Positions 1 through 23,620 of a stretch of DNA of 23,620 nucleotides are shown here, piece by piece. The notes beneath the pieces are model-generated. The model saw only the letters and a list, made by a program, of their open reading frames with translations. It was not told where the DNA came from and did no database searches. Origin of the DNA: a virus. Position 1 is the first letter of the stretch; each line of letters starts with the position of its first letter. Position numbers and translations under genes: made by a program. The DNA lies in the IMG/VR virus record IMGVR_UViG_3300042309_000102, positions 1 through 23,620 of that record; one strand, written 5' to 3'.

Positions 1-38
1 CGACTCTCCATGGTCTCTTTGTACCCCAAAACGAGTCG
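1..38. other. Dyad at HNH-terminase junction, candidate cos or terminase recognition region (first copy, possibly cut by window edge)
   Basis: CGACTC at 1-6 and GAGTCG at 33-38 form a perfect 6-base inverted repeat around 26 bases. It lies inside the end of the HNH gene and just before the terminase start. The same dyad recurs at 14122-14159, where a run of five C directly precedes it. HK97-like phages with HNH plus TerL usually have cos in this neighbourhood. The window opens exactly on the first base of the dyad, which would fit a sequence end at or near a packaging end. That functional reading is inference. Confidence 0.4.
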
Positions 39-53
39 ATAAGTCATGATTAG
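3..53 (+). CDS. HNH endonuclease, C-terminal end only (cut by window start)
   Basis: The last 16 codons and TAG stop of an HNH gene are readable in frame. They encode TLHGLFVPQNESISHD, differing by one residue from the end of the complete gene at 13887-14174. The stop lies 8 bases inside the terminase gene, the same overlap as in the second copy. The catalytic part is outside the window. Confidence 0.75.
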   Translation, partial: TLHGLFVPQNESISHD

Positions 54-1521
54 TGATGATCAGGTCATCATTGATACACCACCGGCTGAAATCGTCTCAG
101 ATCGGCTGGAATCGGTTTTTTTGCCGGTAACAGCTCCACGAATTCACTCACCACTCAATGATTTGCCGTCACGCGGCTTTGAATTGATCGATTTTGCTGA
201 GCAGATCATCCCGGGCGGCTTTATGCCGTGGCAAAAGTGGCTGGCCGAGCACTCGCTCAAGGTAAAGCCAGATGGCCGATACCATCACCCGGTTACAGTC
301 GCATCCGTAGCCCGGCAAAATGGCAAGAGCACTTACATGATGGCCAGAATCATGATGGGTCTTTTTCATTGGGATGAATCGTTGCAAGTTTCCACAGCTC
401 ACAGATTGGTCACATCGCTGGAGCAATTTAGAGCCATTGTGCAGATCATCGAGGAAAATGCGGATCTGGCCAATCAGGTAAAGCGAATCCGTTGGCAACA
501 TGGAGCCGAGGAGATTCAAACGCTTAAAGGCAATCGATTCATCATCAAAGCTGGTGGGTCGGCAGCGCGTGGATTGTCAAAGCCGGAAACCATCCACATG
601 GATGAAATCCGAGAGCTGCACGACATGGAAACTTTTGCAGCTATGCGGTACACCTTGATGGCCGCCAAAAATCCACAGGTCAATTGTTTTAGCTCGGCCG
701 GTGATTCTCACTCAATGGTGCTCAACCAATTGCGCGAGCGCGGTTTGGCCGCAGCTAGTGGTGCAGCCGATGATGTGGGCTATTTTGAGTGGTCTGCACC
801 AACCGATGAAATTTCATTGGAAAATGCGGCTTTTGCCAATCCCGGCCTAAACATCACAATTCACCCAGATAACATCCGAGCCGTTTTCAATGATCCTCCC
901 GATGTTGTAATGACTGAGGTTTTGAATCGATGGGTGCAGACAATCTCCAGCGTTGTGGGAGCAAAAGAGTGGCAAGAGTGTGGCGATGAAACAATTGATC
1001 TGGACGAGGACAAGCTCACATGGATGGCCATCGACATTTCACCGGATCGAAAAAATGCCGCATTGGTCGCGGCTCAAAAACTTGGCTCGGAGTCATTTAT
1101 CGTAAAGCTGTTGCATACATGGGAAAACACAATCCAGCTCGATGATCGGGCAATTGCCAACGATGCAGCCTCTTATTGCCGAAAGTACCCAATTGAGTAC
1201 TTGCTTTATTCAAGGCGTACATCTGGAGCAGTTGCAGCGCGTATGCAGCCGGCGGGTATCCCAATCCATGACATGGATGCCGATTATCCTCAAGCGTGCG
1301 ATGAATTACTTGGTGCAATCAATTCCGGGCGTTTGAAACATCGAAACCAATCAAAGCTGACAGAACAGATTCTTTCAGCTGTGCAATTGCGTAGAGGCGA
1401 TGGCGGTTGGGTAATAGGAAGGCGAGCGAGCGGTACGGCCGTGGCGGCTGCCGTGGCCGCTGCACTTTGTACACACTTTGCGACACGCCCAGAAACGGAA
1501 ATAGACATTTTGGTGGGTTGA
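46..1521 (+). CDS. terL: Terminase large subunit (packaging ATPase-nuclease), copy 1
   Basis: This is the motor that cuts concatemeric DNA and pumps it into the prohead through the portal. The 491 aa fit the HK97-type terminase length. An ARQNGKST Walker A-like loop lies at residues 89-96 (arginine-type, common in phage terminases) and HMDE at 184-187 is the Walker B plus catalytic Glu. The C-terminal RNase H-like nuclease starts near AIDIS, with D330 a candidate metal ligand. The usual last acidic residue near the C-terminus is not evident. The start ATG overlaps the HNH stop by 8 bases and has only a weak ribosome site, suggesting coupling. About 39 of 491 residues differ from copy 2, mostly conservatively. 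No small terminase gene lies beside it. Confidence 0.95.
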   Translation: MISDDQVIIDTPPAEIVSDRLESVFLPVTAPRIHSPLNDLPSRGFELIDFAEQIIPGGFMPWQKWLAEHSLKVKPDGRYHHPVTVASVARQNGKSTYMMARIMMGLFHWDESLQVSTAHRLVTSLEQFRAIVQIIEENADLANQVKRIRWQHGAEEIQTLKGNRFIIKAGGSAARGLSKPETIHMDEIRELHDMETFAAMRYTLMAAKNPQVNCFSSAGDSHSMVLNQLRERGLAAASGAADDVGYFEWSAPTDEISLENAAFANPGLNITIHPDNIRAVFNDPPDVVMTEVLNRWVQTISSVVGAKEWQECGDETIDLDEDKLTWMAIDISPDRKNAALVAAQKLGSESFIVKLLHTWENTIQLDDRAIANDAASYCRKYPIEYLLYSRRTSGAVAARMQPAGIPIHDMDADYPQACDELLGAINSGRLKHRNQSKLTEQILSAVQLRRGDGGWVIGRRASGTAVAAAVAAALCTHFATRPETEIDILVG

Positions 1522-1562
1522 TGCTTGACATTTTGAGAAAATGGGTGCATGGGATTATTTGA
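1521..1562 (+). CDS. Possible 13-codon coupling ORF between terminase and portal
   Basis: ATG at 1521 overlaps the terminase TGA by one base and opens MLDILRKWVHGII, whose stop lies 11 bases past the portal ATG at 1549. The second copy keeps the frame, length and nearly all residues (MLDILRKSSHGII, 15642-15683). Neither portal start has a Shine-Dalgarno sequence, so terminating ribosomes could be handed to the portal ATG. The conservation may instead reflect the overlapping portal start and terminase end. It is listed as a hypothesis, not an established gene. Confidence 0.3.
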   Translation: MLDILRKWVHGII

Positions 1563-2658
1563 CCGAAAGCGCACCATTGAAACTGTGGTTATTGACCGCG
1601 GTGCTGATGTCGCTGCACAAATTGGGCCAGCTCCAACGCTAGATGCTTTTTTTCCATTTGGTGGTGCTGATTATCTTGCAACCCGTGAGGAAGCAATGAG
1701 TGTGCCTGCTATTGCTCGCGCACGAAACATGATTTGTAATTCAATTGCCACAATTCCGCTCATTACTCGCGACAAAACCACAGGACAAATTATTGATCAA
1801 CCTGTTGTGATTTCCGATCCGGATAAGCGAGTACCGGGAGCCGTTTCCTGGTGTTGGGCAGCTGAGGATTTGTTATTTACTGGATTTTCGTATTTTCAAA
1901 TAATTGATTTGTTTGCAGACACAGGCCGTGTGCGCCAAATGTGGCGCGTTGCTCCAAATCGCGTTGGAGTTTTCTTAAATTCAATTGGCACTCAAATTGA
2001 GTATTACACAGTCGATGGATCGCGTGTGCCAATGACAGGTGTTGGATCACTCGTGGTGTTTTACGGCAACGATGAAGGATTATTGAATCGAGCAGGTCGA
2101 ACAATTCGTGCTGGTGCAGAGCTTGAAAGAGCTGCCGCAATGTACGCAAAAGAGCCTGTGCCATCAATGGTTTTGAAATCAAATGGCACAGCATTGCCAG
2201 CTGATCGCATTGCAAAACTTTTGGATGCGTGGGGCGCAGCTCGTAGAAACCGAGGCACCGCGTTTCTAAATGCCGATGTTGAATTGACCACAGTCGGTTT
2301 CACACCAGAGCAAATTGGCCTCAATGCTGCACGCGAGATTATTGCAACAGAATTGGCTCGTGCCGTGGGTATTCCGGCTTACTTTATTGATGCGCCGACT
2401 GGATCATCCATGACCTATGCAAACGCCCAAACGGCGCGTCAAACTTTGTTGGACTTTTCACTTTTGCCGCTGATGAACAGCATTAGCAGCAGGCTCTCAA
2501 TGCCAGATTTTACGCCTTCAACGCAGCGCGTGGAATTTGATCTCAAGGCGTATTTACGCGGATCAGAAAAAGAGCGCGCAGAGATTTACAAGATTTTATT
2601 TGACATCGGGGCGATCACCACCGATGAAATTAGACAAATGGAGGACATGATCTCATGA
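1549..2658 (+). CDS. Portal protein, HK97 family, copy 1
   Basis: It forms the dodecameric ring at the capsid vertex through which DNA enters and leaves. At 369 aa it is short for HK97-type portals, which usually exceed 400 aa. The N-terminus MGLFDRKR and the segment SVPAIARARNMICNSIATIP (residues about 50-69) are typical of the family's clip and stem entry. A glycine-serine loop with TYANAQTARQ near residues 287-296 precedes the C-terminal wing and crown region. The ATGA overlap with the capsid gene (2655-2658) implies coupled translation. No ribosome binding site precedes the ATG in either copy. About 13 residues differ from copy 2. Confidence 0.93.
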   Translation: MGLFDRKRTIETVVIDRGADVAAQIGPAPTLDAFFPFGGADYLATREEAMSVPAIARARNMICNSIATIPLITRDKTTGQIIDQPVVISDPDKRVPGAVSWCWAAEDLLFTGFSYFQIIDLFADTGRVRQMWRVAPNRVGVFLNSIGTQIEYYTVDGSRVPMTGVGSLVVFYGNDEGLLNRAGRTIRAGAELERAAAMYAKEPVPSMVLKSNGTALPADRIAKLLDAWGAARRNRGTAFLNADVELTTVGFTPEQIGLNAAREIIATELARAVGIPAYFIDAPTGSSMTYANAQTARQTLLDFSLLPLMNSISSRLSMPDFTPSTQRVEFDLKAYLRGSEKERAEIYKILFDIGAITTDEIRQMEDMIS

Positions 2659-4208
2659 AGCTGACAACACCAATGCAAATCACGGCAGCTGATTCGGATG
2701 CACGCACAATTAGCGGTCGCATTGTTGCTTTCAATGAACACGCAAATGCATCAACCGGCAAAGTCGTATTTGCTCGCGGATCAATCCAGCCACAAGATGT
2801 TTTCTTAAACCTTGAGCATGATAATACGCGCAGAATTGGGCGAAGCGTTGCCATGTCTGTGAACGATAAGGAAATGACGGCAACATTTAAGATTGCGAAC
2901 ACCACAGCTGGAACCGATGCGCTAACAGAGGCAATGGAAGGCTTACGCGATGGATTCTCAATTGAATTGGCTGTGGACAATTACGAAATGCAAAAGGATG
3001 GCACCATGAAGGTGCTCAATGGACAGCTCACAGCTGTCGCTTTGGTTACTGAACCGGCCGTGCGATCTGCACGCGTTTCAGAGGTAGCCGCATCAGAAGA
3101 TTCTGAAACTGAAACAGTTACAGAGACAACAAACCCAAATGAAGGAGACAAGATGGACAACACTACCGAACCAGTAGCTCCTGCCGTTGAACCGGTAGCA
3201 GCTCCAGAAGTCGCACCTGTACAGGCATCACGCCCGGCTTACTACACAGCACCACGCTCACCAATTGTGGACAAGGTTTCTTACCTTGAGCACTACCTAC
3301 GCGCAAGCGTTTTGCATGATGAGGATTCACGCCAGTATGTCAAGGCAGCTGATAACACAACATCAACAGCACCCGGCATGATTCCAACACCACAAAGCAC
3401 ACAGGTGATCAACGCGCTAGCAAATGCTGATCGTGGCACAATCGATGGCATCAGCCGTGAGACATTAGTTGCAGAAGGCATGACATTTGAATTGCCTCGC
3501 GTAACAGCTGTACCAACAGTATTGCCAATTGATGAAAACGATGCAATTACAGAATCATCACTATCTGCAACCTTTTTATCCGTTTCTGTTCAGCCTTTCA
3601 AAGGCCGTGCAATTTCCACAGTAGAACTCATTGACCGAAGCCGGCCAGAGTACCTAACAGCTTTGCTCCAGAATCTTGAATTTGCATACGCAAAAGAAAC
3701 TGATGAGTATGCATTGGCACAAATGCAAGCGGCAGTTACTAGCGTGACAGCACAGGCAGCAAACTCAGCAACCGGATTCCTTGGATACACATCAAAGGCA
3801 GCTGCAAATGTTTATGGCGCATCACTTGGATTCGCTCGCTCATTGATCGTTTCACCTACACAATGGGGAAACATCATGGGTTACAACGACAATGGCGCAC
3901 CACTTTACAACGCAGCACAGCCTTCAAACGCAGCTGGAAATGTTCGCGGAGATTCATTGCGCGGTGTAGTTTCACCGGGCTTAAATCTTTATGTTTCACG
4001 CTCATTTGGTAACGCTGGTACAACAACAGCCGATGGCGATTCTTCAATGGTCGTTGTAAATCCAGATTCTTACACATGGTATGAATCTCCACGCTTTACG
4101 CTACGCAGCAACATCAACAGCGATGGAACAATTGACATCCTGTATTACGGATACGGCGCACTAGCTGCCAAGGTGCCAAACGGCGCACAATTTAACAACC
4201 TCCCATAA
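2655..4208 (+). CDS. Fused prohead protease-major capsid protein, copy 1
   Basis: This single 517-aa frame joins two products that most HK97-like phages encode separately. Residues 1 to about 150 resemble the HK97 prohead protease: H55 in NLEHDNTRRIGRS and S102 in DGFSIEL are the likely catalytic pair, followed by VALVTEPAVRSARV. An acidic Thr/Glu/Asn linker (about 146-166) leads to M167. From there a proline-alanine-rich arm and an HK97-fold capsid protein follow, with SPTQWGNIMGYNDNGAPLY and GVVSPGLNLYVSRS. An internal ribosome site at 3142-3147 before M167 could also produce the 351-aa capsid alone. Residues about 258-300 are far more diverged from copy 2 than their flanks. Confidence 0.92.
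   Translation: MKLTTPMQITAADSDARTISGRIVAFNEHANASTGKVVFARGSIQPQDVFLNLEHDNTRRIGRSVAMSVNDKEMTATFKIANTTAGTDALTEAMEGLRDGFSIELAVDNYEMQKDGTMKVLNGQLTAVALVTEPAVRSARVSEVAASEDSETETVTETTNPNEGDKMDNTTEPVAPAVEPVAAPEVAPVQASRPAYYTAPRSPIVDKVSYLEHYLRASVLHDEDSRQYVKAADNTTSTAPGMIPTPQSTQVINALANADRGTIDGISRETLVAEGMTFELPRVTAVPTVLPIDENDAITESSLSATFLSVSVQPFKGRAISTVELIDRSRPEYLTALLQNLEFAYAKETDEYALAQMQAAVTSVTAQAANSATGFLGYTSKAAANVYGASLGFARSLIVSPTQWGNIMGYNDNGAPLYNAAQPSNAAGNVRGDSLRGVVSPGLNLYVSRSFGNAGTTTADGDSSMVVVNPDSYTWYESPRFTLRSNINSDGTIDILYYGYGALAAKVPNGAQFNNLP
3142..3155 (+). promoter_or_regulatory. Internal ribosome binding site and ATG inside protease-capsid fusion
   Basis: AAGGAG at 3142-3147 lies 5 bases before an in-frame ATG at 3153 (codon 167), exactly at the junction between protease and capsid. 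It is as strong as the sites before the tail tube and tape measure genes. Both copies are identical over 3099-3208 (110 bases by eye) around it, although flanking coding DNA diverges at synonymous sites. This suggests free capsid subunits are made in excess over the protease fusion. Confidence 0.65.
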
Positions 4209-4217
4209 TCACTATCG

Positions 4218-4241
4218 GTAGCGGTCGCTCCCGAACGCTAC
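4218..4241 (+). promoter_or_regulatory. Conserved hairpin between capsid and adaptor genes
   Basis: GTAGCG (4218-4223) pairs with CGCTAC (4236-4241) around a 12-base loop, with a possible G-T pair extending it. It lies in the 52-base gap after the capsid stop and just before the adaptor ribosome site AAAGGA (4249-4254). The block 4214-4265 is identical in the second copy, while the bases just after the capsid stop differ. No U-run follows, so an intrinsic terminator is unlikely. An attenuator, RNA processing site or protein target is possible. Confidence 0.5.
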
Positions 4242-4260
4242 TGACACGAAAGGAACCGAG

Positions 4261-4842
4261 ATGCCAGCAATAGTCACAGCCTCACAGCTGAGGTCAATTC
4301 TTGGTGTCTCGGTTTCTTTGTATTCCGATGCACAGTTGGATCAAATAATTGATTCGGCTGAGCAAACAATTTTGCCTTTACTTACGCAATACCAATCATC
4401 GGTGACATTTGCCAATGTGAGTGATTCCGTCATTTATTTCACCACAATGCGGCCAAACTATTTTGTGCCGGGTCAATCTGTTGTTGTAACCGGGGCCGGA
4501 GCATACAACGCGACTTATACTGTCACCGATGATCGGATTGAGCCATACACATTTACAGCAGCAACAGCGGCGGCTGATCGTGACTATCCATTGCCGTTTA
4601 TTCCTGCGGCATTTGCGACCTTATCCGGTGGGTCAGCCGCACAGCTTTACGCAAATACACCACCAGTAGAAAATGCAATTTTGGTTGTGTCGGTTGAGAT
4701 TTTTCAGAGCATCACAGCTCCCGGCAATCAAATCATGTCAGATAATTTTACGCCATCACCATTTGTCCTTGGCCGCAGCTTAACAAACAGAGTGATCGGC
4801 TTACTTGGGCCATTTATTGATGTTGAAACGATGTGCCAATGA
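4261..4842 (+). CDS. Head-tail adaptor (HK97 gp6-like) with inserted beta domain, copy 1
   Basis: By position after the capsid gene and by its helical N-terminus (VTASQLRSILG, then YSDAQLDQIIDSAEQTILPL), it resembles the gp6-type adaptor that sits under the portal. The 193 aa exceed a plain adaptor of about 100 aa because a beta-rich, Thr/Val/Tyr-rich segment (residues about 48-125) separates the helical N-terminus from a helical C-terminus ending in GLLGPFIDVETMCQ. The start has a good ribosome site, AAAGGA at 4249-4254. It overlaps the next gene by 4 bases. Function comes from synteny and fold impression, not a diagnostic motif. Confidence 0.65.
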   Translation: MPAIVTASQLRSILGVSVSLYSDAQLDQIIDSAEQTILPLLTQYQSSVTFANVSDSVIYFTTMRPNYFVPGQSVVVTGAGAYNATYTVTDDRIEPYTFTAATAAADRDYPLPFIPAAFATLSGGSAAQLYANTPPVENAILVVSVEIFQSITAPGNQIMSDNFTPSPFVLGRSLTNRVIGLLGPFIDVETMCQ

Positions 4843-5213
4843 GCATCGAATCAGCCATCCGCACACCATTGAAAACAGCACTTTCAACCATTGCTGCCAA
4901 TGTCTATAACGGCATCCCAGAGACAATGACAAGCCCATCGATCTGTTTGATCCCGGATGCGCCGTATCTTGAAAGCGTTTTGATCAATGGAGCAACAACA
5001 AAAGTCAAAGTCAATCTGACTGTGACTGGCGTTGTCGCATACATGAACAACGCGGCAGCTTTGGACAACCTAGAAAAATTGATGATCAACATCATCAGCG
5101 CAATGCCGTCAGGTTATGAAGTCGGCAATGTGAACCAACCCCAACCATTGGAAGTCGGTGCAGGTAGTTACCTCACAGCCGATTTACAAGTCAGCACCTA
5201 TTACACCAACTAA
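4839..5213 (+). CDS. Tail completion or tail terminator-like protein, copy 1
   Basis: This 124-aa protein starts MSIESAIRTPLKTAL and contains a helix, a proline-rich turn and a beta-sheet core (KVKVNLTVTGVVAY). It ends in GAGSYLTADLQVSTYYTN. Its size, mixed alpha-beta pattern and place between adaptor and tail tube fit the tail terminator or completion proteins that cap the tail tube at the head joint. The ATG at 4839 forms an ATGA overlap with the adaptor stop and is preferred over an in-frame GTG two codons upstream. Motif evidence is weak; synteny carries the call. Confidence 0.6.
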   Translation: MSIESAIRTPLKTALSTIAANVYNGIPETMTSPSICLIPDAPYLESVLINGATTKVKVNLTVTGVVAYMNNAAALDNLEKLMINIISAMPSGYEVGNVNQPQPLEVGAGSYLTADLQVSTYYTN

Positions 5214-5222
5214 GGAGAAATC

Positions 5223-5615
5223 ATGCCAACAACAATCGTCACCGGCAGAGACATCACTTTCACCATTGCTGGTGATAACTACGATGCTCAGGCCACATCA
5301 GCAATTTTGACAATTGATTCAACGATCAATACATACCAAACACTCGATGGCAAGGCGTATTTTACGTCCGATTCGCAAGGCACATTTGCCGTTGAAATGC
5401 TTGCCGATTGGCCAGCAGGCGGTTCACTATGCAACGCGCTATGGACAGCGGCCGACACAGCACCAAACACACCATTGGCGGTTGTTTTTACAGCTGCATC
5501 AGGATCGGTGTTCAATTTTGATGTGCAGCCAATTTTCCCATCAGCTGGAGGCACAGCACCAGATGCACAAACTGTTTCATTAGCATTTACCTGTGTGACA
5601 ACACCAACACTATAA
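5223..5615 (+). CDS. Major tail (tube) protein, copy 1
   Basis: A small 130-aa, beta-rich, Thr/Ala-rich protein beginning MPTTIVTGRDITFTIAGD. It is positioned right before the frameshifted tail chaperone gene, the standard place of the tube subunit that stacks into the tail shaft. A strong AAGGAG (5212-5217), 5 bases before the ATG, overlaps the preceding stop codon and fits high expression. The second copy is 133 aa with a slightly longer C-terminus and a diverged middle. The N-terminal 45 and the PIFPSAGGTAPDAQTVSLAF segment are conserved. Confidence 0.8.
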   Translation: MPTTIVTGRDITFTIAGDNYDAQATSAILTIDSTINTYQTLDGKAYFTSDSQGTFAVEMLADWPAGGSLCNALWTAADTAPNTPLAVVFTAASGSVFNFDVQPIFPSAGGTAPDAQTVSLAFTCVTTPTL

Positions 5616-5631
5616 AAAGGAGATCGGGAGC

Positions 5632-5910
5632 ATGAAACTAGCAATCACAATTGAATTCACTACCGGTGAGAGCGCAACCTATACCGCGCTACCACCGGAG
5701 TGGATGAAATGGGAACAAAAAACCGGAAACACAATTCAGCAAGTATCTGAGAAATTGGGCATCGCTGATTTGATGTTTTTGGCATACCACGCAATGAAAC
5801 GAGAGGCAGCCGGAAAGCCTGTCAAGCCTTTTGAAGTGTGGTGTGAAACTGTAACTGACATCAACATGGGAGAAACCGAAAACCCAAAAGTTATGAATCC
5901 GGATCAATAA
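5632..5910 (+). CDS. Tail assembly chaperone, short form (gpG-like), copy 1
   Basis: The 0-frame product of 92 aa coats the tape measure during tail assembly in lambda-type phages. It begins MKLAITIEFTTGESATYTAL and is almost unchanged in the second copy until the end, where KVMNPDQ becomes KATSREP. That loss of conservation begins exactly after the CCCAAAA slip site at 5883-5889. AAGGAG at 5617-5622 is 9 bases upstream of the ATG. The call rests on position between tube and tape measure, the frameshift architecture, and the downstream overlapping -1 frame. Confidence 0.85.
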   Translation: MKLAITIEFTTGESATYTALPPEWMKWEQKTGNTIQQVSEKLGIADLMFLAYHAMKREAAGKPVKPFEVWCETVTDINMGETENPKVMNPDQ

Positions 5911-6023
5911 ACCGGATTCTTTGGGAATTGGCTATCGATACGGGATTGTCAAGATCAGAGTTTCAAACAGCTGAGGACATTTTAACCGCTTTCGAGATAC
6001 TGAGGATCAGAAATGGCAACTGA
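5632..6023 (+). CDS. Tail assembly chaperone, -1 frameshifted long form (gpGT-like), copy 1
   Basis: If ribosomes slip back one base at CCCAAAA (5883-5889), translation continues from 5889 for 44 codons to TGA at 6021-6023, giving 130 aa. The extension reads SYESGSINRILWELAIDTGL and continues SRSEFQTAEDILTAFEIL before RIRNGN. The second copy encodes a nearly identical extension, with no in-frame start of its own. This explains the otherwise empty 100 bases before the next gene. In lambda, gpGT binds both the tape measure and the tube protein. The extension overlaps the next gene's start by 11 bases. Confidence 0.88.
5883..5919 (+). promoter_or_regulatory. Programmed -1 ribosomal frameshift signal with stem-loop, copy 1
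   Basis: The heptamer C CCA AAA (5883-5889) is a canonical X XXY YYZ slip site in the zero frame. Five bases later an 8-base perfect stem follows: GAATCCGG (5895-5902) with CCGGATTC (5912-5919) around a 9-base loop that contains the zero-frame stop. The spacing is typical for stimulatory structures. The heptamer is identical in the second copy. Confidence 0.88.
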
Positions 6024-6468
6024 GACAATCACCTATGACAAGGCTGATTTGCGCGGAATCATCAAAGCTTTCAAAGCTATGGATGAGCAAGCGGTTGCCG
6101 AAGCAAAAGGCGTTTCAAATGGCTTGGCTACTTATTTGCAATCAAAAGTTATAGCCGCAGCTGGAGGCCGACCAAATAAAGCCGCAATACGCATTGCCCA
6201 AGGATCGCGTGTAAGTAAGTCATCAAAAATTGGTGAAATCAGCTTTGGTTTTGTATCCCAAAAATTTAGCGGTGGCGGTACGACTCAGCAGCTTTGGGGC
6301 GGTTACGAATTTGGATCAACCAAATTTAAGCAATTTCCAATTTGGTCAGGCCGTGGGCCTCGCGGTGGATCGGCTGGCTATTTCATTTATCCAACATTGC
6401 GTGCCGAACAGCCACATATCATCAATCAATGGGAAAATGCATTTTCTAAGATTTTGAAGGAGTGGTGA
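6013..6468 (+). CDS. HK97 gp10-like head-tail or tail-joint protein, copy 1
   Basis: A 151-aa basic protein with a helical N-terminal half (KADLRGIIKAFKAMDEQAV) and the sequence WGGYEFGSTKFKQFPIWSGR, then YFIYPTLRAEQPHIINQWEN near the C-terminus. The GYEFGS...P...YPTLR pattern recalls HK97 gp10-type proteins, which normally sit between adaptor and tail tube genes. Here the gene is between chaperone and tape measure, an unusual place. Its start overlaps the gpGT end by 11 bases, and its stop TGA overlaps the tape measure ATG. Family assignment is tentative; it is nearly identical in copy 2. Confidence 0.55.
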   Translation: MATETITYDKADLRGIIKAFKAMDEQAVAEAKGVSNGLATYLQSKVIAAAGGRPNKAAIRIAQGSRVSKSSKIGEISFGFVSQKFSGGGTTQQLWGGYEFGSTKFKQFPIWSGRGPRGGSAGYFIYPTLRAEQPHIINQWENAFSKILKEW

Positions 6469-8060
6469 TGGCTGGTCAAAGTAGAACTCTCAAGCTTTCG
6501 ATTCTTGGCGATGTAGATCAACTTAAGAAAAGCCTCAACACCGGATCAAACGAAGTTCAAGGTTTTGGCAACAAACTCGGTGATTTTAGCAAAAAGGCTG
6601 GTTTGGCTTTTGCCGCAGCTGGTGCTGCCGCAGCTGCTTATGCAGGCAAATTGCTCATTGATGGTGTTAAGTCTGCAATTGAGGATGAGGCTGCTCAAGC
6701 AAAATTGGCAACAACTTTGCAAAATGTTACCGGTGCAACAAACGCGCAAATTGCAGCTGTTGAGGATTACATAACACAAACCGCATTGGCCAATGGTGTA
6801 ACCGATGATCAACTAAGGCCATCTCTCGACAGACTGGTGAGAAGTACGAAAGATGTTGAGGAAGCGCAAAAGCTCCAAACATTGGCATTAGACATTGCAG
6901 CCGGTACAGGCAAGGACTTGCAGACAGTTTCGGAAGCCTTGGGAAAGGCCTATGATGGAAATTTAGGCGCACTCAAAAAATTGGGTGTAGGCATCGATGA
7001 TTCAATTATTAAATCAAAGAATTTTGATGCTGCCGCAGCTGCACTTTCAAAGACTTTTGAAGGTCAAGCATCAAAGCAAGCTGAGACATTTCAAGGCAAA
7101 ATGGCACGGCTTACTGTTGCATTTGATGAGGCAAAAGAAACTGTCGGATCGTATGTGCTTGATGCGCTAACACCATTGGTCAGCAACTTTGTGGACAAAG
7201 GCATCCCAGCAATTCAAGATTTTGCCGGCAATCTGAGCAAAACATTGGGGCCAGCCTTTACTCAAATACTCAAAGTAGTTCGCGATGATGTTTTGCCGAT
7301 TATCAAAGCTTGGTATGGCTTTATTGTTGACACGATTGTTCCAGCTCTTTCAGCTATTATCGGGCCGGCTTTTCAAGGTTTAGTCAGCGCATTTACCAAA
7401 ATCAAAAATGCTGTCGTGGACAATAGTGATGAATTAAAGCCATTGCTAGGTTTGTTTAAGTCAATCGCCAATTTTATAAAAGAGGATTTAGCACCTATTT
7501 TGGGTGGTGCTTTCAAATTAGCATTGTCAGCAATTGGAACAATTGTTGCTGGCCTTGTTACCGGCTTTTCAAAGCTTGTTGGTTTTCTCACCAACACAAT
7601 TAACAAAATGAAAGAATTTGTCAATTTCATCAAAGATAATCCGGTTACACGCTTTTTCTTTACTACGGAAAGTGAATCCAAAGGTTTGAAGGCTGGGGGC
7701 ACTTTTGATCTACGCACACCGGTCGAATCACCGGGATTTGGCGTAGGTAATGGATTTATGCCATCGGGTGTATCACCGACATTTACAGGCGCACCTGTTG
7801 AGGCTTACTCACCAGCCATGCAAGCTGCGATTTTAAGGCGTGAGGAATTGAAGGCGGAAACCGAAAGATTGAGGCAAGCCCGAGAGGCAGCCGCAGCTGC
7901 ACGATTAGCGGCTACCGGTGGGCTTTCAACAGGTGAACGCATTACAATCAATGTGAGCGGTGCAATCGATCCTGAAGGCACAGCACGCACAATTGTGGAC
8001 ACACTCAATAACTCATTTTACCGGGGCACGCTTGGTGCTGGGGCGCTGGTTGCTGTCTAA
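6468..8060 (+). CDS. Tape measure protein, copy 1
   Basis: It sets tail length and is the longest gene in the unit (530 aa). It starts at ATG 6468 with AAGGAG at 6457-6462, preferred over a GTG two codons earlier. An alanine-rich hydrophobic stretch follows near residues 36-60. Long helical repeats come next, then two hydrophobic segments (DDVLPIIKAWYGFIVDTIVP and GTIVAGLVTGFSKLVGFLTN). The Arg/Ala-rich tail ends in NVSGAIDPEGTARTIVDTLN. At roughly 0.15 nm per residue it predicts a tail near 80 nm. Residues about 272-350 and 400-440 are strongly diverged from copy 2, but total length differs by one residue. Confidence 0.93.
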   Translation: MAGQSRTLKLSILGDVDQLKKSLNTGSNEVQGFGNKLGDFSKKAGLAFAAAGAAAAAYAGKLLIDGVKSAIEDEAAQAKLATTLQNVTGATNAQIAAVEDYITQTALANGVTDDQLRPSLDRLVRSTKDVEEAQKLQTLALDIAAGTGKDLQTVSEALGKAYDGNLGALKKLGVGIDDSIIKSKNFDAAAAALSKTFEGQASKQAETFQGKMARLTVAFDEAKETVGSYVLDALTPLVSNFVDKGIPAIQDFAGNLSKTLGPAFTQILKVVRDDVLPIIKAWYGFIVDTIVPALSAIIGPAFQGLVSAFTKIKNAVVDNSDELKPLLGLFKSIANFIKEDLAPILGGAFKLALSAIGTIVAGLVTGFSKLVGFLTNTINKMKEFVNFIKDNPVTRFFFTTESESKGLKAGGTFDLRTPVESPGFGVGNGFMPSGVSPTFTGAPVEAYSPAMQAAILRREELKAETERLRQAREAAAAARLAATGGLSTGERITINVSGAIDPEGTARTIVDTLNNSFYRGTLGAGALVAV

Positions 8061-9307: not shown

Positions 9308-9318
9308 GGAGAAAACAA

Positions 9319-11715: not shown

Positions 11716-11718
11716 CGA

Positions 11719-11738: not shown

Positions 11739-11778
11739 ATTGTTGAACTTGTCGGTTTTGCCTGTCACTCTTTATTTC

Positions 11779-11811: not shown

Positions 11812-11817
11812 AAGACA

Positions 11818-15683: not shown

Positions 15684-16779
15684 TCGAAAGCGCACCATTG
15701 AAGCTGTGGCAATTGACCGCGGTGCTGATGTAGCTGCACAAATTGGGCCAGCCCCAACGCTGGATGCATTTTTCCCATTTGGTGGAGCTGATTACATTGT
15801 CAGCCGCGAGGAAGCAATGTCTGTGCCAGCGATTGCTCGCGCACGCAACATGATTTGCAATTCAATTGCCACAATTCCGTTGATTACTCGTGACAAAACA
15901 ACAGGTCAAATCATTGATCAACCGGTTGTCATTTCTGATCCGGACAAGCGAGTACCAGGAGCCGCATCATGGGTGTGGGCTTGTGAGGATTTACTTTTCA
16001 CGGGATTTTCGTATTTTCAAATCATCGATTTGTTTGCAGACACAGGCCGCGTGCGCCAAATGTGGCGCGTTGCTCCCAATCGTGTGGGTGTTTTCTTAAA
16101 TTCAATCGGCACCCAAATTGAGTATTACACAGTAGATGGATCTCGTGTGCCAATGACGGGTGTTGGATCTCTTGTCGTGTTTTACGGCAACGATGAAGGA
16201 TTGCTCAACAGAGCCGGCCGCACAATCCGTGCAGGTGCAGAGCTTGAAAGAGCAGCTGCAATGTACGCAAAAGAGCCTGTGCCATCAATGGTTTTGAAAT
16301 CAAACGGCACAGCATTGCCAGCTGATCGCATTGCAAAATTGCTTGATGCATGGGGCGCAGCTCGTAGAAATCGTGGCACCGCATTTCTCAATGCTGATGT
16401 TGATTTGACCACAGTTGGTTTTTCACCAGAGCAAATCGGCCTCAATGCCGCACGCGAAATCATTGCCACCGAATTAGCTCGTGCCGTGGGAATTCCGGCC
16501 TATTTTATTGACGCGCCAACTGGCTCCAGCATGACATACGCAAACGCTCAAACGGCTCGTCAAACTTTGTTGGATTTCTCATTGCTGCCGCTGATGAACA
16601 GCATTAGCTCAAGGTTATCCATGCCAGATTTCACGCCATCAACACAGCGCGTTGAATACGATCTCAAAGCGTATTTGCGCGGATCAGAAAAAGAGCGTGC
16701 AGAGATTTACAAAATTTTGTTTGAAATCGGTGCAATTACTACTGAGGAAATTCGACAAATGGAGGACATGATCTCATGA
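15670..16779 (+). CDS. Portal protein, copy 2
   Basis: 369 aa, about 96% identical to copy 1. The changes sit mainly near residues 9-12, 45-48 and 86-94 (AASWVWACED against AVSWCWAAED), with the rest of the ring-forming core nearly unchanged. It keeps the ATGA overlap with the protease-capsid gene. Confidence 0.93.
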   Translation: MGLFDRKRTIEAVAIDRGADVAAQIGPAPTLDAFFPFGGADYIVSREEAMSVPAIARARNMICNSIATIPLITRDKTTGQIIDQPVVISDPDKRVPGAASWVWACEDLLFTGFSYFQIIDLFADTGRVRQMWRVAPNRVGVFLNSIGTQIEYYTVDGSRVPMTGVGSLVVFYGNDEGLLNRAGRTIRAGAELERAAAMYAKEPVPSMVLKSNGTALPADRIAKLLDAWGAARRNRGTAFLNADVDLTTVGFSPEQIGLNAAREIIATELARAVGIPAYFIDAPTGSSMTYANAQTARQTLLDFSLLPLMNSISSRLSMPDFTPSTQRVEYDLKAYLRGSEKERAEIYKILFEIGAITTEEIRQMEDMIS

Positions 16780-18326
16780 AGCTGACAACACCAATGCAAA
16801 TCACGGCAGCTGATTCAAATGAACGCACGATCAGCGGTCGCATCGTTGCTTTCAACGAGCACGCAAATGCATCAACCGGCAAAGTCGTTTTTGCTCGTGG
16901 ATCAATTCAGCCACAGGATGTTTTTTTGAACCTTGAGCACGACAACACACGCAGAATTGGTCGCAGCGTTGCCATGTCCGTGAACGACAAGGAAATGACA
17001 GCGACTTTCAAAATTGCTAACACAACAGCCGGCACCGATGCACTAGAGGAAGCAATGACCGGATTGCGTGACGGATTTTCAATTGAATTGGCCGTGGACA
17101 ATTACGAAATGCAAAAGGATGGCACCATGAAGGTGCTAAACGGACAGCTCACAGCTGTCGCTTTGGTTACTGAACCAGCTGTGCGATCAGCTCGCGTTTC
17201 TGAGGTAGCCGCATCAGAGGATTCTGAAACTGAAACAGTTACAGAGACAACAAACCCAAATGAAGGAGACAAGATGGACAACACTACCGAACCAGTAGCT
17301 CCTGCCGTTGAACCGGTAGCAGCTCCAGAGGTCGCACCAGTACAGGCATCACGCCCAGCCTATTACACAGCACCACGCTCACCAATCGTGGACAAGGTTT
17401 CATACCTTGAGCACTACCTCAAGGCAAGCATTTTGCATGACGAGGATTCACGCCAGTATGTCAAGGCAGCCGACAACACAACATCAACAGCACCCGGCAT
17501 GATTCCAACACCACAGAGCACAAATGTGATCAACGCACTTGCAAACGCTGACCGAGGCATGATCGATGCGATCAGCCGCGAAAGCCTAGTAAGCGAAGGT
17601 ATGACATTTGAAATCCCAAAGGTTTCTGAGGTGCCTGTCGTTGATCAGATCAATGAAGGTCAAGCAATCGCTGAATCATCACTTTCAGCCACATTTTTAT
17701 CTGTTTCTGTCAAGCCTTTCAAAGGCCGCGCAATTTCCACAGTAGAACTCATTGACCGAAGCCGGCCAGAGTACCTCACAGCTTTGCTCCAGAATCTCGA
17801 ATTTGCGTATGCAAAGGAAACAGATCAGTTTGTGACAGCTGCAATTCAGGCAGCTGGAAACACAACAGCACAGGCAGCAAACACAGCAACAGGATTCCTT
17901 GGATACACATCAAAGGCTGTTGCAAATGTTTATGGTGCATCACTTGGATTTGCTCGCTCACTTGTAGTTTCACCAACACAATGGGGAAACATCATGGGTT
18001 ACAACGACAATGGAGCACCGCTTTACAACGCGGCTAATCCATCAAACCAAGCTGGAAATGTTGGAAACGGATCATTGCGCGGTGTAGTTTCACCGGGTCT
18101 AAACCTCCATGTTTCACGCTCAATCGGTACAGCTGGATCAACAACAGCTGAAGGCGATCTATCAATGGTTGTCATCAACCCAGATTCATACACATGGTAC
18201 GAATCTCCACGCTTTACGCTACGCACCAATGTCAATTCAGATGGAACAATTGACATCCTTTACTATGGCTATGGCGCACTAGCAACCAAGGTTGCAAATG
18301 GTGCAACATGGAACAACCTCGCATAA
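16776..18326 (+). CDS. Fused prohead protease-major capsid protein, copy 2
   Basis: 516 aa. The protease half keeps H55 and S102 with only a few changes, and the junction and internal start are identical to copy 1. The capsid half shows a sharply bounded diverged block near residues 258-300 (for example VSEVPVVDQINEGQAIAESS against VTAVPTVLPIDENDAITESS). After it a long, almost identical stretch resumes. A one-residue deletion occurs just before TAQAAN. Confidence 0.92.
   Translation: MKLTTPMQITAADSNERTISGRIVAFNEHANASTGKVVFARGSIQPQDVFLNLEHDNTRRIGRSVAMSVNDKEMTATFKIANTTAGTDALEEAMTGLRDGFSIELAVDNYEMQKDGTMKVLNGQLTAVALVTEPAVRSARVSEVAASEDSETETVTETTNPNEGDKMDNTTEPVAPAVEPVAAPEVAPVQASRPAYYTAPRSPIVDKVSYLEHYLKASILHDEDSRQYVKAADNTTSTAPGMIPTPQSTNVINALANADRGMIDAISRESLVSEGMTFEIPKVSEVPVVDQINEGQAIAESSLSATFLSVSVKPFKGRAISTVELIDRSRPEYLTALLQNLEFAYAKETDQFVTAAIQAAGNTTAQAANTATGFLGYTSKAVANVYGASLGFARSLVVSPTQWGNIMGYNDNGAPLYNAANPSNQAGNVGNGSLRGVVSPGLNLHVSRSIGTAGSTTAEGDLSMVVINPDSYTWYESPRFTLRTNVNSDGTIDILYYGYGALATKVANGATWNNLA
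17263..17276 (+). promoter_or_regulatory. Internal ribosome binding site and ATG in protease-capsid fusion, copy 2
   Basis: AAGGAG at 17263-17268 precedes the in-frame ATG 17274 (codon 167) by 5 bases, inside the 110-base tract identical to copy 1. Confidence 0.65.
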
Positions 18327-18340
18327 ATAACTCAAAATCG

Positions 18341-18364
18341 GTAGCGGTCGCTCCCGAACGCTAC
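18341..18364 (+). promoter_or_regulatory. Conserved hairpin between capsid and adaptor genes, copy 2
   Basis: GTAGCG (18341-18346) pairs with CGCTAC (18359-18364). The 52-base block around it matches copy 1 exactly, although the bases between the capsid stop and the block differ and include a 2-base length change. Confidence 0.5.
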
Positions 18365-18383
18365 TGACACGAAAGGAACCGAG

Positions 18384-18965
18384 ATGCCCGCAATAGTTAC
18401 AGCCTCACAGCTCAGACAAATTTTGGGTGTCTCGGTTTCTTTGTATTCCGATGCCCAGCTTGATTCATTTATTGATTCAGCTGAGCAAACAGTTTTGCCT
18501 TTACTTACGCAATACCAATCATCGGTGACTTTTGCCAATGTGAGTGATTCCGTCATTTATTTCACCACAATGCGGCCAAATTACTTTGTGCCGGGTCAAT
18601 CTGTTGTTGTTACCGGGGCCGGAGCTTACAGCGCGACTTATACTGTCACCGATGATCGGATTGAGCCATACACATTTACAGCTGCAACAGCGGCAGCTGA
18701 TCGAACCTATCCATTGCCGTTTATTCCAGCGGCAACAGCAACGCTGAGCGGTGGATCGGCAGCGGCTTTGTATGCAAACACGCCACCGATTGAAAACGCG
18801 ATTTTGGTTGTAGCGGTTGAGATTTTTCAGAGCATCACAGCTCCCGGCAACCAGATCATGTCAGACAATTTTCAGCCGTCACCATTTGTGCTCGGCCGCA
18901 GCTTAAGCAACAGAGTCATCGGTTTATTAGGCCCATTTTTAGATGTCGAAACGATGTGCCAATGA
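18384..18965 (+). CDS. Head-tail adaptor with inserted beta domain, copy 2
   Basis: 193 aa. The first helices and the beta insertion (YFTTMRPNYFVPGQSVVVTG) are nearly unchanged; scattered substitutions occur near residues 27-28 and 117-138. It keeps the 4-base overlap with the next gene and the same AAAGGA ribosome site. Confidence 0.65.
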   Translation: MPAIVTASQLRQILGVSVSLYSDAQLDSFIDSAEQTVLPLLTQYQSSVTFANVSDSVIYFTTMRPNYFVPGQSVVVTGAGAYSATYTVTDDRIEPYTFTAATAAADRTYPLPFIPAATATLSGGSAAALYANTPPIENAILVVAVEIFQSITAPGNQIMSDNFQPSPFVLGRSLSNRVIGLLGPFLDVETMCQ

Positions 18966-19336
18966 GCATCGAATCCGTAATCCGTACGCCATTAAAAAAC
19001 GCGCTTTCATCTATTGCTGCCAATGTCTATAACGGCATCCCGGAAACAATGACCAGCCCATCGATCTGCCTTATTCCCGATGCACCTTATTTGGAGAGCG
19101 TTTTAATCAATGGCGCGACAACAAAGGTCAAAGTCAATTTAACTGTCACGGGTGTTGTGGGTTATGCCAACAATGCCGCAGCTTTAGACAATCTCGAAAC
19201 ATTGATGATCAACATCATCAGCGCAATGCCGGGCGGTTACGAAGTCGGCAATGTGAATCAACCTCAACCATTGGAAGTCGGTGCAGGTAAATACCTCACG
19301 GCCGATTTACAAGTAAGCACCTATTACACCAACTAA
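18962..19336 (+). CDS. Tail completion or tail terminator-like protein, copy 2
   Basis: 124 aa from ATG 18962, with about ten substitutions against copy 1 (for example VVGYANNAAALDNLETLM against VVAYMNNAAALDNLEKLM). The C-terminal ADLQVSTYYTN is unchanged. The stop overlaps the AAGGAG of the tube gene. Confidence 0.6.
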   Translation: MSIESVIRTPLKNALSSIAANVYNGIPETMTSPSICLIPDAPYLESVLINGATTKVKVNLTVTGVVGYANNAAALDNLETLMINIISAMPGGYEVGNVNQPQPLEVGAGKYLTADLQVSTYYTN

Positions 19337-19345
19337 GGAGAAATC

Positions 19346-19747
19346 ATGCCAACAACAATCATCACCGGCAGAGACATCACTTTCACCATTGATGGTGATA
19401 ATTTCGATGCACAGGCCACATCAGCGACTTTAACTGTCGATTCAACTATCAACACCTACCAGACACTCGATGGCAAAGCGTATTTTACGACAGATTCGCA
19501 AGGATCTTTTGCGGTTGAAATGTTGGCCGATTGGGGCGCAACTGGCTCGCTTTGCGAAGGTCTTTGGACAGCGGCAGCATCCGCACCAAATACAGCATTG
19601 CCTGTTGTTTTGGTATCAGATACAGGCGCATCATTTGCGTTTTCTGTTCAGCCGATTTTCCCATCAGCTGGAGGAACAGCACCAGATGCACAAACTGTCT
19701 CACTTGCTTTCACTTGTGTGACAACACCAGTTTTGACAATTAGCTAA
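19346..19747 (+). CDS. Major tail (tube) protein, copy 2
   Basis: 133 aa, three residues longer than copy 1 at the C-terminus (TTPVLTIS against TTPTL). The region about residues 60-98 is diverged in sequence but equal in length. The N-terminal half and the PIFPSAGGTAPDAQ segment are conserved. The same strong AAGGAG lies at 19335-19340. Confidence 0.8.
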   Translation: MPTTIITGRDITFTIDGDNFDAQATSATLTVDSTINTYQTLDGKAYFTTDSQGSFAVEMLADWGATGSLCEGLWTAAASAPNTALPVVLVSDTGASFAFSVQPIFPSAGGTAPDAQTVSLAFTCVTTPVLTIS

Positions 19748-19764
19748 CAAAGGAGATCGGGAGC

Positions 19765-20043
19765 ATGAAACTAGCAATCACAATTGAATTCACTACCGGG
19801 GAGAGCGCAACTTATACAGCGCTCCCACCGGAGTGGATGAAATGGGAGCAAAAAACTGGAAACACCATCCAGCAAGTGTCTGAGAAGTTAGGCATTGCTG
19901 ATTTGATGTTTTTGGCTTATCACGCAATGAAGCGCGAGGCAGCTGGAAAGCCTGTCAAGCCATTTGAGGTGTGGTGCGAATCTGTAACTGACATAAACAT
20001 GGGAGAAACCGAAAACCCAAAAGCTACGAGCCGGGAACCTTAA
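19765..20043 (+). CDS. Tail assembly chaperone, short form (gpG-like), copy 2
   Basis: 92 aa, identical to copy 1 but for one residue up to the slip site. The zero-frame tail KATSREP is then unrelated to copy 1 beyond its first residue, as expected if selection acts on the -1 frame there. Confidence 0.85.
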   Translation: MKLAITIEFTTGESATYTALPPEWMKWEQKTGNTIQQVSEKLGIADLMFLAYHAMKREAAGKPVKPFEVWCESVTDINMGETENPKATSREP

Positions 20044-20156
20044 ACCGGATCATTTGGGAACTAGCGCTCACCACAGGATTGTCACGATCAGAGTTTCAAA
20101 CAGCTGAGGACATTTTAACTGTTTTCGAGATTCTAAGGATACGAAATGGCAACTGA
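19765..20156 (+). CDS. Tail assembly chaperone, -1 frameshifted long form (gpGT-like), copy 2
   Basis: Slippage at CCCAAAA (20016-20022) gives 44 more codons, reading SYEPGTLNRIIWELALTTGL and continuing SRSEFQTAEDILTVFEIL to TGA 20154-20156. About eight of 44 residues differ from copy 1, mostly conservatively. The 130-aa length is unchanged. Confidence 0.88.
20016..20051 (+). promoter_or_regulatory. Programmed -1 frameshift signal, copy 2
   Basis: The heptamer is identical to copy 1. The downstream stem is at the same place but weaker: CCGG (20031-20034) with CCGG (20045-20048), then one mismatch and a further GA/TC pair. The loop is 10 bases. Confidence 0.8.
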
Positions 20157-20601
20157 GACAATCACCTATGACAAGGCTGATTTGCGTGGCATCATCAAGG
20201 CTTTCAAAGCCATGGATGAGCAAGCCGTTTCTGAGGCCAAAGCTGTTTCAAATGGCTTGGCCACATACTTACAATCCAAAGTGATTTCGGCCGCTGGCAA
20301 TCGACCAAATAAAGCTGCAACCCGTATTGCTCAAGGCTCGCGCGTAAGCAAGTCATCAAAGATTGGCGAGATCAGCTTTGGCTTTGTGTCGCAGAAATTT
20401 AGCGGTGGCGGTACAACTCAACAGCTTTGGGGCGGTTACGAATTTGGATCAAACAAATTCAAGCAATTCCCACTTTGGTCAGGTCGTGGGCCTCGTGGTG
20501 GATCAGCTGGCTATTTCATTTATCCAACATTGCGTGCCGAACAGCCGCACATCATCAATCAATGGGAAAATGCATTTTCTAAGATTTTGAAGGAGTGGTG
20601 A
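20146..20601 (+). CDS. HK97 gp10-like head-tail or tail-joint protein, copy 2
   Basis: 151 aa with about eight substitutions against copy 1, all outside the WGGYEFGS and YFIYPTLR segments except one Ser-Asn and Thr change region near residue 102-104. An AAGGAT ribosome site precedes the ATG, slightly better than in copy 1. Confidence 0.55.
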   Translation: MATETITYDKADLRGIIKAFKAMDEQAVSEAKAVSNGLATYLQSKVISAAGNRPNKAATRIAQGSRVSKSSKIGEISFGFVSQKFSGGGTTQQLWGGYEFGSNKFKQFPLWSGRGPRGGSAGYFIYPTLRAEQPHIINQWENAFSKILKEW

Positions 20602-22196
20602 TGGCTGGTCAAAGTAGAACTCTCAAGCTTTCGATTCTTGGCGATGTAGATCAGCTCAAGAAAAGCCTCAACACCGGATCGACCGAGGTTGATGGTTTTG
20701 CTGGCAAATTAGGTGGATTTGCTAAAAAAGCCGGTGCAGCTTTTGCCGTAGCTGGAGCAGCTGCCGCAGCTTATGCTGGCAAATTGCTTGTTGATGGCGT
20801 TAAGGCTGCAATTGAGGATGAAGCAGCTCAAGCCAAATTGGCAACCACATTGGAAAATGTTACCGGTGCAACCAATGCCCAGATTAAAGCTGTCGAGGAT
20901 TACATAACACAAACAGCTTTGGCTAACGGCATCACCGATGATCAATTGAGGCCATCGCTGGATCGGTTGATCAGATCGACCAAAGATGCGACCAAAGCAC
21001 AAGAATTGCAATCATTGGCGTTGGACATTGCAGCCGGTACCGGCAAGGATCTTTCAGCCGTTTCTGAGGCTTTGGCCAAGGCGTACGATGGCAACTTAGG
21101 CGCATTAAAGCGTTTAGGTGTTGGCATCGATGATTCAATCATCAAATCAAAGAATTTTGATGCAGCCGCAGCTGCACTTTCAAAGACTTTTGAAGGTCAG
21201 GCATCAAAGCAAGCTGAAACATTTGAAGGCAAAATGGCGCGGCTAACTGTCGCATTTGATGAAGCAAAAGAAACTGTCGGATCCTATGTGCTAGATGCAC
21301 TCACGCCATTGGTCAGCGGTATCGTGGACAAAGGCATACCAGCGCTGACCGATTTTGCCAGCAATTTAGGCAAAAGCCTTGGGCCAGCATTTGGTCAAAT
21401 TGTCAAAGTCGTGCGCGATGATCTTTTGCCGATTTTGGTTTCATGGTGGAAATTTCTTTATAATGAAGTCATCCCGGCAATTGGCGGTGTTGTTGGCCCA
21501 ATCCTTGAAGGTTTGAAATCGGCATTTGATAAGATTAAAAAAGCAATCACAGACAATTCAGCGGAATTGCAACCTTTCTATGATGCGCTCGCAAAAGTAT
21601 GGGAATTTGTCAAAAAGTATTTGGTTCCACTTTTGGGCGATCAATTCAAAACAGCACTCGAAGCTATTGGCACAATTGTTGCTGGTCTAGTCACGGGCTT
21701 TTCAAAATTGGTTGGTTTTATCTCAAACACAATTACAAAAATGAAAGAATTTGTGAATTTCATCAAAGATAACCCCGTGACACGCTTTTTCTTTGGCGAT
21801 GATGGCTCAAAAGGTTTGAAAGCAAGCACATCGTTTCAGACACCGGTTCAACCTGTACTTTCGCCTGTTAGAAATCAAGATTTATTTTATGATCCCAATG
21901 GCGATCCGCGCACATTTACAGGCGCACCGCTAGAGGCATTTTCACCCGGTATGCAAGCTGCAATTTTACGCAAAAACGAATTGGCCGCGGAAACAGCACG
22001 ATTGCGAGAAGCACGCGAATCAGCGGCAGCTGCACGATTGGCGGCAACGGGTGGCCTTTCCACAGCTGAGCGAATCACGATCAATGTGAGCGGTGCAATC
22101 GATCCAGAAGGCACAGCACGCACAATTGTGGACACTCTCAATAATTCCTATTATCGCGGCACAAGCGGTGCAGGAGCTTTGGTTACAGCGCCATGA
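20601..22196 (+). CDS. Tape measure protein, copy 2
   Basis: 531 aa, one residue longer than copy 1, so the predicted tail length is the same. AAGGAG and ATG are placed as in copy 1. The middle hydrophobic region (SWWKFLYNEVIPAIGGVVGP) and the segment before TFTGAP are heavily changed. The ends, including NVSGAIDPEGTARTIVDTLN, are conserved. The stop forms an ATGA overlap with the hub gene, against a TAATG overlap in copy 1. Confidence 0.93.
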   Translation: MAGQSRTLKLSILGDVDQLKKSLNTGSTEVDGFAGKLGGFAKKAGAAFAVAGAAAAAYAGKLLVDGVKAAIEDEAAQAKLATTLENVTGATNAQIKAVEDYITQTALANGITDDQLRPSLDRLIRSTKDATKAQELQSLALDIAAGTGKDLSAVSEALAKAYDGNLGALKRLGVGIDDSIIKSKNFDAAAAALSKTFEGQASKQAETFEGKMARLTVAFDEAKETVGSYVLDALTPLVSGIVDKGIPALTDFASNLGKSLGPAFGQIVKVVRDDLLPILVSWWKFLYNEVIPAIGGVVGPILEGLKSAFDKIKKAITDNSAELQPFYDALAKVWEFVKKYLVPLLGDQFKTALEAIGTIVAGLVTGFSKLVGFISNTITKMKEFVNFIKDNPVTRFFFGDDGSKGLKASTSFQTPVQPVLSPVRNQDLFYDPNGDPRTFTGAPLEAFSPGMQAAILRKNELAAETARLREARESAAAARLAATGGLSTAERITINVSGAIDPEGTARTIVDTLNNSYYRGTSGAGALVTAP

Positions 22197-23440
22197 CCTT
22201 ATTCAACCCAATTTGGCGTGTGACCATTGCAGGTGTGCAATACCAAACGGCTATTTTGGCCAATCTGACGATTAGCAGCGGGCGCACAAACATTTATGAG
22301 CAGGCGCAGGCTGGGTACATCAATCTTGAATTGATCAACCTTGATCAATCAAACGTCACAATCGGACTTAACCAAGACATACTCGTGGAGTTGCAAGATT
22401 CCACAGCTACATTTGTGCCAATCTTTGGCGGCTCAATTGTTGAGGTTGGCATTGCCGTGGCTGAGGTTGGATCGGTCACTTACGCACAGCGAATCAACAT
22501 CATTGCATTGGGCGCTTTGGCAAGATTGCCCAAAGCTTTAACTGATGGCGTTTTGAATGATGATTTTGACGGCAACCAGATTTACACAATTTTAACGCAA
22601 GTATTGTGGAGCACATGGGCAGAAGTGCCACCGACACTAACATGGGCAACTTATGATGCGACCACACAATGGCAAAACGCTGAAACAAGCGGAGTAGGTG
22701 AAATTGATCGCCCAGGCAATTATGAGCTTGAAAATCGATCATCATCGGTCACGGATGTGTATTCATTGGTCGCAGCTTTAGCCACATCGGGATTGGGTTA
22801 CATCTACGAGGATGCTCAAGGCCGAATCGGTTATGCAGACAGTACACACCGAACCAATTATTTGGCGGTCAATGGGTATGTTGATCTCACAGCAAATCAC
22901 GCCTTGGCATCGGGTTTGAGCATCCAATCCCGCACGGGCGATGTTCGCAATACAATCACGCTCAAATACGGCAACAATTTAAACAAAGAAGTGAACGCGG
23001 TTGATCAGGCATCTGTCACCTCTTATGGTCAATTAGCACAAATTTTCAACACCACGATCAAACATGATGCCGATGCTCAGGATCAGGCGGATTTTTATCT
23101 TGAACTCAGAGCCAATCCGCGATTTAATTTTAACAACATCACTTTCGAGCTTACGAATCCAGAACTTGATGACAGCGACCGGGATGCCTTGATCAATGTT
23201 TTCATGGGTATGCCCGTGAACATCATGGATTTACCATTGAACATGAATTCAGGCGATTATCTGGGTTTCGTTGAAGGCTGGACATTTTCGGCCAGATACA
23301 ATCAGGTCAGCATTTCAATGATTTTGTCACCAGTATCTTTCTCATTGCAAGCCATGCGATGGAACGATGTGCCGGTGACAGAAAAATGGAACACCATCAA
23401 TCCAACCTTGGATTGGATCAATGCCACGATTGTGGCGTAA
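22193..23440 (+). CDS. Minor tail protein, probable distal tail or hub component, copy 2
   Basis: 415 aa, equal in length to copy 1. It starts MTLFNPIWRVTIAGVQYQTA. The most changed part is near residues 258-282 (GNNLNKEVNAVDQASVTSYG against GATSSSEESASDPASIALYG). The C-terminal GWTFSARYNQVSISM region is unchanged. AAGGAG for the next gene begins at its stop codon. Confidence 0.72.
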   Translation: MTLFNPIWRVTIAGVQYQTAILANLTISSGRTNIYEQAQAGYINLELINLDQSNVTIGLNQDILVELQDSTATFVPIFGGSIVEVGIAVAEVGSVTYAQRINIIALGALARLPKALTDGVLNDDFDGNQIYTILTQVLWSTWAEVPPTLTWATYDATTQWQNAETSGVGEIDRPGNYELENRSSSVTDVYSLVAALATSGLGYIYEDAQGRIGYADSTHRTNYLAVNGYVDLTANHALASGLSIQSRTGDVRNTITLKYGNNLNKEVNAVDQASVTSYGQLAQIFNTTIKHDADAQDQADFYLELRANPRFNFNNITFELTNPELDDSDRDALINVFMGMPVNIMDLPLNMNSGDYLGFVEGWTFSARYNQVSISMILSPVSFSLQAMRWNDVPVTEKWNTINPTLDWINATIVA

Positions 23441-23451
23441 GGAGAAAACAA

Positions 23452-23620
23452 GTGGCAAACCCAACAACGAACTTCAATTTTGTAATGCCCACACCGACAG
23501 ATTTGGTCACGGATTTGCCGGCTGATTTTGAAGTATTTGGTCAGGCTGTGGACACACAATTAGCAACTTTGACCACCAAAATTCAATTCAACAATCAAAC
23601 AGGCACAACATACACATTGG
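23452..23620 (+). CDS. Small structural protein, copy 2, N-terminal part (cut by window end)
   Basis: GTG 23452 opens MANPTTNFNFVMPTPTDLVT as in copy 1, and the frame stays open for 56 codons to the window edge. Only synonymous changes are visible in the part present. Confidence 0.8.
   Translation, partial: MANPTTNFNFVMPTPTDLVTDLPADFEVFGQAVDTQLATLTTKIQFNNQTGTTYTL

Follow-up and report, generated by a model that had tools for sequence, protein, structure and literature searches.

Does the window analysed here, a complete linear IMG/VR virus record of 23,620 bases, represent one natural double genome, or two genomes that were joined on the way to the database? Our results suggest that it is very probably a chimeric metagenome contig, in which the assembler ran from one strain (A) into a second strain (B) at a cos site common to both. 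The 23.6 kb double genome itself is probably no natural object.

A self-comparison aligned positions 1-7301 with 14122-21434 at 85.9% identity and 7529-9487 with 21662-23620 at 78.3%, and the two matches run in the same direction; identity is thus about 86% across 7.3 kb of in-register overlap. Ten genes are shared, each of them open in both copies, and their offset runs from 14121 (TerL, 46 to 14167) to 14133 (8060 to 22193). Self-alignment and gene offsets therefore confirm the first-pass annotation, which had placed the same genes in the same order in 1-9487 and 14122-23620 at an offset of 14121-14133. The copies are indeed in register at its boundary of 14122, but the meaningful boundary is cos, which divides the window as follows:

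1-9, plus strand: last 9 bases of the cos overhang, CGACTCTCC, at the contig start; other contigs begin within or at the same 12 bases
10-14118, plus strand: genome A, a full packaged unit minus the 12-base overhang, whose ends match the fixed ends of relatives
14119-14130, plus strand: cos, a 12-base overhang, probably 3', CCCCGACTCTCC, located where A joins B, from contig-end comparison
14131-23620, plus strand: genome B, two thirds of the unit of a second strain counted from its left end, by the self-comparison and block identities

The window is longer than one 14.1 kb unit and repeats that unit in register. Per 250-base block, A and B are 73-95% identical up to about 7.2 kb and 58-84% identical at 7.2-9.2 kb. 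Block identity returns to about 90% at the very end of the B part, and it is inside this stretch that the contig end cuts genome B off. Across the ten shared genes, dN/dS is 0.04-0.20, and third positions make up 55-84% of the codon positions that differ, in agreement with the many synonymous differences reported at first reading. Because dN/dS is low and the differences are biased to third positions, A and B are two functional genomes under strong purifying selection, and neither is a decaying duplicate.

The annotated genes are:

46-1521, plus strand: terminase large subunit (TerL), copy A (phrog_9, E 1.2e-55)
14167-15642, plus strand: TerL, copy B, 92% amino acid identity to copy A
1549-2658, plus strand: portal, copy A (PF04860, E 1.4e-35); copy B at 15670-16779
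2655-4208, plus strand: protease/major capsid fusion, copy A (PF04586, E 1.4e-4); copy B at 16776-18326
5223-5615, plus strand: possible major tail protein, copy A (phrog_4574, E 0.0014); copy B at 19346-19747
6462-8060, plus strand: tape measure protein, copy A (phrog_58, E 6.7e-15); copy B at 20595-22196
8060-9307, plus strand: tail-region protein, copy A (weak phrog_5313 match); copy B at 22193-23440
9708-10538, plus strand: glycine-rich protein, A only (PF21722, E 4.1e-17)
10824-11336, plus strand: CHAP endolysin, A only (PF05257, E 1.2e-8; phrog_9589 endolysin)
13863-14174, plus strand: HNH endonuclease reading frame running through cos (PF01844, E 2.6e-11)

Judged by these protein matches, the gene set is that of a very small siphophage. 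Copy A of the protease/capsid fusion also matches the major head protein family phrog_2263 (E 3.4e-53), and the tail-region protein has hundreds of homologues among viral contigs. The glycine-rich protein and the endolysin are found in A alone because B is truncated by the contig end.

To place the join, we searched viral contigs with TerL, which gave 347 related stretches; 80 were kept as the TerL set, and the full records were then retrieved. More than half of the set (44 of 80) begins at the base equivalent to window position 10/14131, 36 bases before the TerL start. Nine full-length relatives of 13,597-14,584 bp (L199-L203 and L205-L208) start at the base equal to window position 10 and end at the base equal to 14118 (...ACAC). 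The 12 bases CCCCGACTCTCC sit between the two ends in contigs that cross cos, and are missing from both ends of the nine full-length monomers. We infer a 3' polarity, because the overhang bases are lost from both ends, as happens to 3' overhangs in end repair. The packaged DNA of this diverse swarm of 13.6-14.6 kb siphophages has fixed ends, which we read as a 12-base 3' cos; in many Arthrobacter phages, cohesive ends are reported to measure 9-13 bases (PMC5513430).

Together with its ATGG/AAGG flank, the cos pattern CCCCGACTCTCCAWGG was matched by 115 stretches from viral contigs, and the 16 bases ending at the A/B join, ACACCCCCGACTCTCC, are identical in 113 of the 115 junction copies tallied. 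The join falls exactly at cos, and the contig itself begins 9 bases ahead of the left end of A. Among the contigs listed by a scan with the exact cos pattern, which misses variants, none had two cos copies; when a contig starts at cos, as the window does, the full site occurs in it only once. One relative, L210, closes on itself via an exact 123-base end repeat, and therefore DNA that crosses cos exists in these samples.

The HNH reading frame crosses this site. Its catalytic domain lies left of cos, in A, while the last ~15 residues and the stop codon lie right of it, in B; the overhang encodes part of a conserved TPPTL. The C-terminus ends in SHD or SHE, in most members with the stop codon at the start of TerL, and almost every distinct junction sequence in the family keeps the frame open across cos. 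A codon test gave a clear coding signal left of cos (142 synonymous changes against 81.6 expected) and moderate support for coding right of it (36 against 23.7, with 38 against 28.7 in another frame). Packaged DNA would thus carry the gene in two pieces, and only circles or concatemers would have it whole. A literature search for genes spanning a cos site found none, a weak indication that this arrangement may be new.

HNH matches also lie beside the genome end, at the right ends of the cos phages SfI and SfIV of Shigella, but in the window the reading frame crosses the overhang. Decurro likewise has an HNH gene at its right end, which ends before the genome end, whereas that of the window crosses cos. 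The nearest cultured relatives, all distant, are the cluster AN Arthrobacter phages (Decurrovirus, 15.3-15.6 kb), Curtobacterium phage Penoan (15.3 kb) and Gordonia phage EricDab (16.7 kb). Phages of this type share with the units of the window a very small siphophage-type genome, a protease-capsid fusion, the order TerL-portal-capsid, a tape measure and an endolysin. Contigs with both ends, at 13,597-14,584 bp, agree with the ~14-17 kb of the type, the protease-capsid fusion is present, and the cohesive ends have a short extension of 12 bases, read as 3'. Close protein similarity is absent: the capsid fusion matches over its first ~130 residues only (26% of its length) at ~35% identity, and matches to phage TerLs stay below 60%, at 26-28% among the matches listed.

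We then asked whether A and B form one lineage. Between A and B, TerL and portal together share 86.55% identity. Of 77 contigs, 60 lie nearer to A than B does, and 51 lie nearer to B than A does. In phylogenies built on TerL and on the stretch from TerL through portal to the capsid start, A and B fall into separate supported groups, each including contigs that begin at the packaged end. Constraining A and B to group together in AU tests gave p values of 0.061 and 0.114, neither significant, with a log-likelihood drop of ~95 each time; recombination within the swarm may blur this test. From the identity ranks and the supported tree groups, A and B are two ordinary swarm members and not sisters of each other. 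Compared by segment, A or B reaches 81-98% identity to other contigs, except in the A-only stretch at 9.5-11 kb. Unlike other parts of the genome, positions 9501-10500, in the region of the glycine-rich gene of A, have almost no relatives at the DNA level among the contigs retrieved, and are possibly a fast-exchanging receptor-binding module. Near-identical DNA was not found in the phage collection. A genome-contig collection contained a single relative, L363 (JAIXWE010000062.1), a 14,197 bp contig binned in an alphaproteobacterial MAG; the binning is probably uninformative on the host.

The window has company. Nine further longer-than-unit contigs (L190, L191, L193-L196, L212, L213 and L365) carry diverged in-register overlaps that are 71-94% identical. 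The lengths (and overlap identities) of five of them are 17,400 bp (89.8%), 15,566 bp (83.3%), 16,131 bp (72.7%), 16,724 bp (89.7 and 94.1%) and 16,504 bp (92.9%); those of the other four are 17,821 bp (92.2 and 85.7%), 20,684 bp (73-79%), 25,513 bp (71-80%) and 16,000 bp (90.0 and 92.6%). The pairing of two TerL copies was compared in L190 and L191, in each of which the copies fall into different tree groups, as for A and B, in pairings unlike that of the window. The right-end/left-end protein pairing of the window recurs in L107. At the junctions of L121, L161 and L148, near-identical HNH-side right ends are attached to different left ends; strains seem to have swapped ends at cos, via recombination or misassembly. 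Two other records, of 16,178 bp (L192/L077) and 16,888 bp (L295), contain inverted joins, with end duplications in inverse orientation or with parts of TerL on either strand, which are signs of misassembly or amplification chimeras.

Together, these observations favour a switch between strains at cos, by the assembler or by ligation of cos ends, because the join lies exactly there, relatives of both halves start there as monomers, other over-long contigs pair other strains, and A and B are not sisters. One of the options listed in the first-pass annotation, an assembler crossing from one strain into its relative, is thus the one we prefer. The annotation had spoken of two diverged genomes joined: the two diverged strains stand, while the evidence points away from the joined object that this implies. 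We infer that the switch was made in silico rather than in one natural DNA molecule.

We propose the following model. The natural genomes would be separate linear monomers of ~14.1 kb with 12-base 3' cohesive ends, and co-occurring cos siphophages of this size would share a strongly conserved junction made up of the HNH gene end, the 12-base overhang and the TerL start. From the left end of strain A, the assembler would proceed to the right end, cross cos on reads of circular, concatemeric or end-ligated DNA, and enter the left end of strain B, since the junction is common to the strains. The contig would then stop 9.5 kb later, at 23620, where A and B reach ~90% identity again. The switch thus lies in sequence common to strains, and both parts are closer to other genomes than to each other. 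Against an assembler join we count that the longest exact string spanning the join and shared with another contig (L107) is 74 bases, shorter than large assembler k-mers, and that the AU tests were non-significant.

Precedents exist for such an artefact. Chimeras from co-existing similar viruses are documented (PMC5610896), and the CheckV authors hold that IMG/VR contigs with a repeated genome are probably artefacts of assembly, and say that chimeras of closely related viruses still escape detection (PMC8116208). The genome concatemers recognized in IMG/VR by CheckV, and by MetaVR as a 'concatemer' class, likewise exceed unit length and repeat the unit head to tail; in the window, by contrast, the repeat copy is 86% identical and comes from another strain, and repeat and k-mer filters stay silent. 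Its 21-mer frequency is 1.05, below the MetaVR concatemer cut-off of 1.4 (PMC12807716), and for this reason the window would go unflagged, as cross-strain cases pass the filter.

Another possible origin is a real mixed concatemer, in which, within a co-infected cell, A and B are ligated after their cohesive ends pair, or recombine during replication, and later packaging would cut the product into monomers. The 12-base overhang is identical in almost all members, so any two strains could anneal; right and left ends are freely mixed among contigs, and the HNH frame is open across the A/B join. However, such a molecule would be transient, of a kind that a consensus contig cannot show, and many contigs share the pattern with different strain pairs, beside plain misassemblies. 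We consider this origin unlikely for the window. It is similarly improbable that A-B concatemers form in co-infected cells via the swarm-wide cos, with HNH-cos-TerL ends routinely exchanged between strains.

The cos ends of two strains might also have been ligated during DNA extraction or library preparation, giving chimeric molecules that were real in the tube and not in nature. The cohesive 3' ends are the same across strains, but the expected consensus is the same as from an assembler switch, and most full-length contigs are without the overhang, as trimming of 3' overhangs ahead of ligation would predict. We regard ligation in the tube as very unlikely.

An inherited two-unit phage of ~28 kb, arising by tandem duplication and then divergence, would agree with two intact copies under purifying selection. 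Yet the copies are not mutual nearest relatives, most swarm contigs being closer; each clusters with contigs whose first base is the packaged end; and every one of the nine contigs that have both exact ends spans a single unit. The same pairing should also recur if a double genome were inherited, whereas L190 and L191 pair other strains. The non-sister copies, differing pairings and one-unit monomers largely refute such a dimer, which is extremely unlikely. Terminal redundancy (pac/DTR), whose end repeats should be identical and not 58-95% identical by block, and a tandem prophage, with no integrase family at E<=0.001 and no non-phage flank in the window, are rejected, as in the first-pass annotation.

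The chimeric contig that we favour is a clear case of an assembly defect that escapes k-mer and repeat filters, with two strains placed end to end at a shared cos. Taken at face value as a virus of 23.6 kb, it would make genomes of the group look larger, and their gene copy numbers higher, than they are. The comparison also gives exact genome ends for a group of very small tailed phages that is abundant and uncultured.
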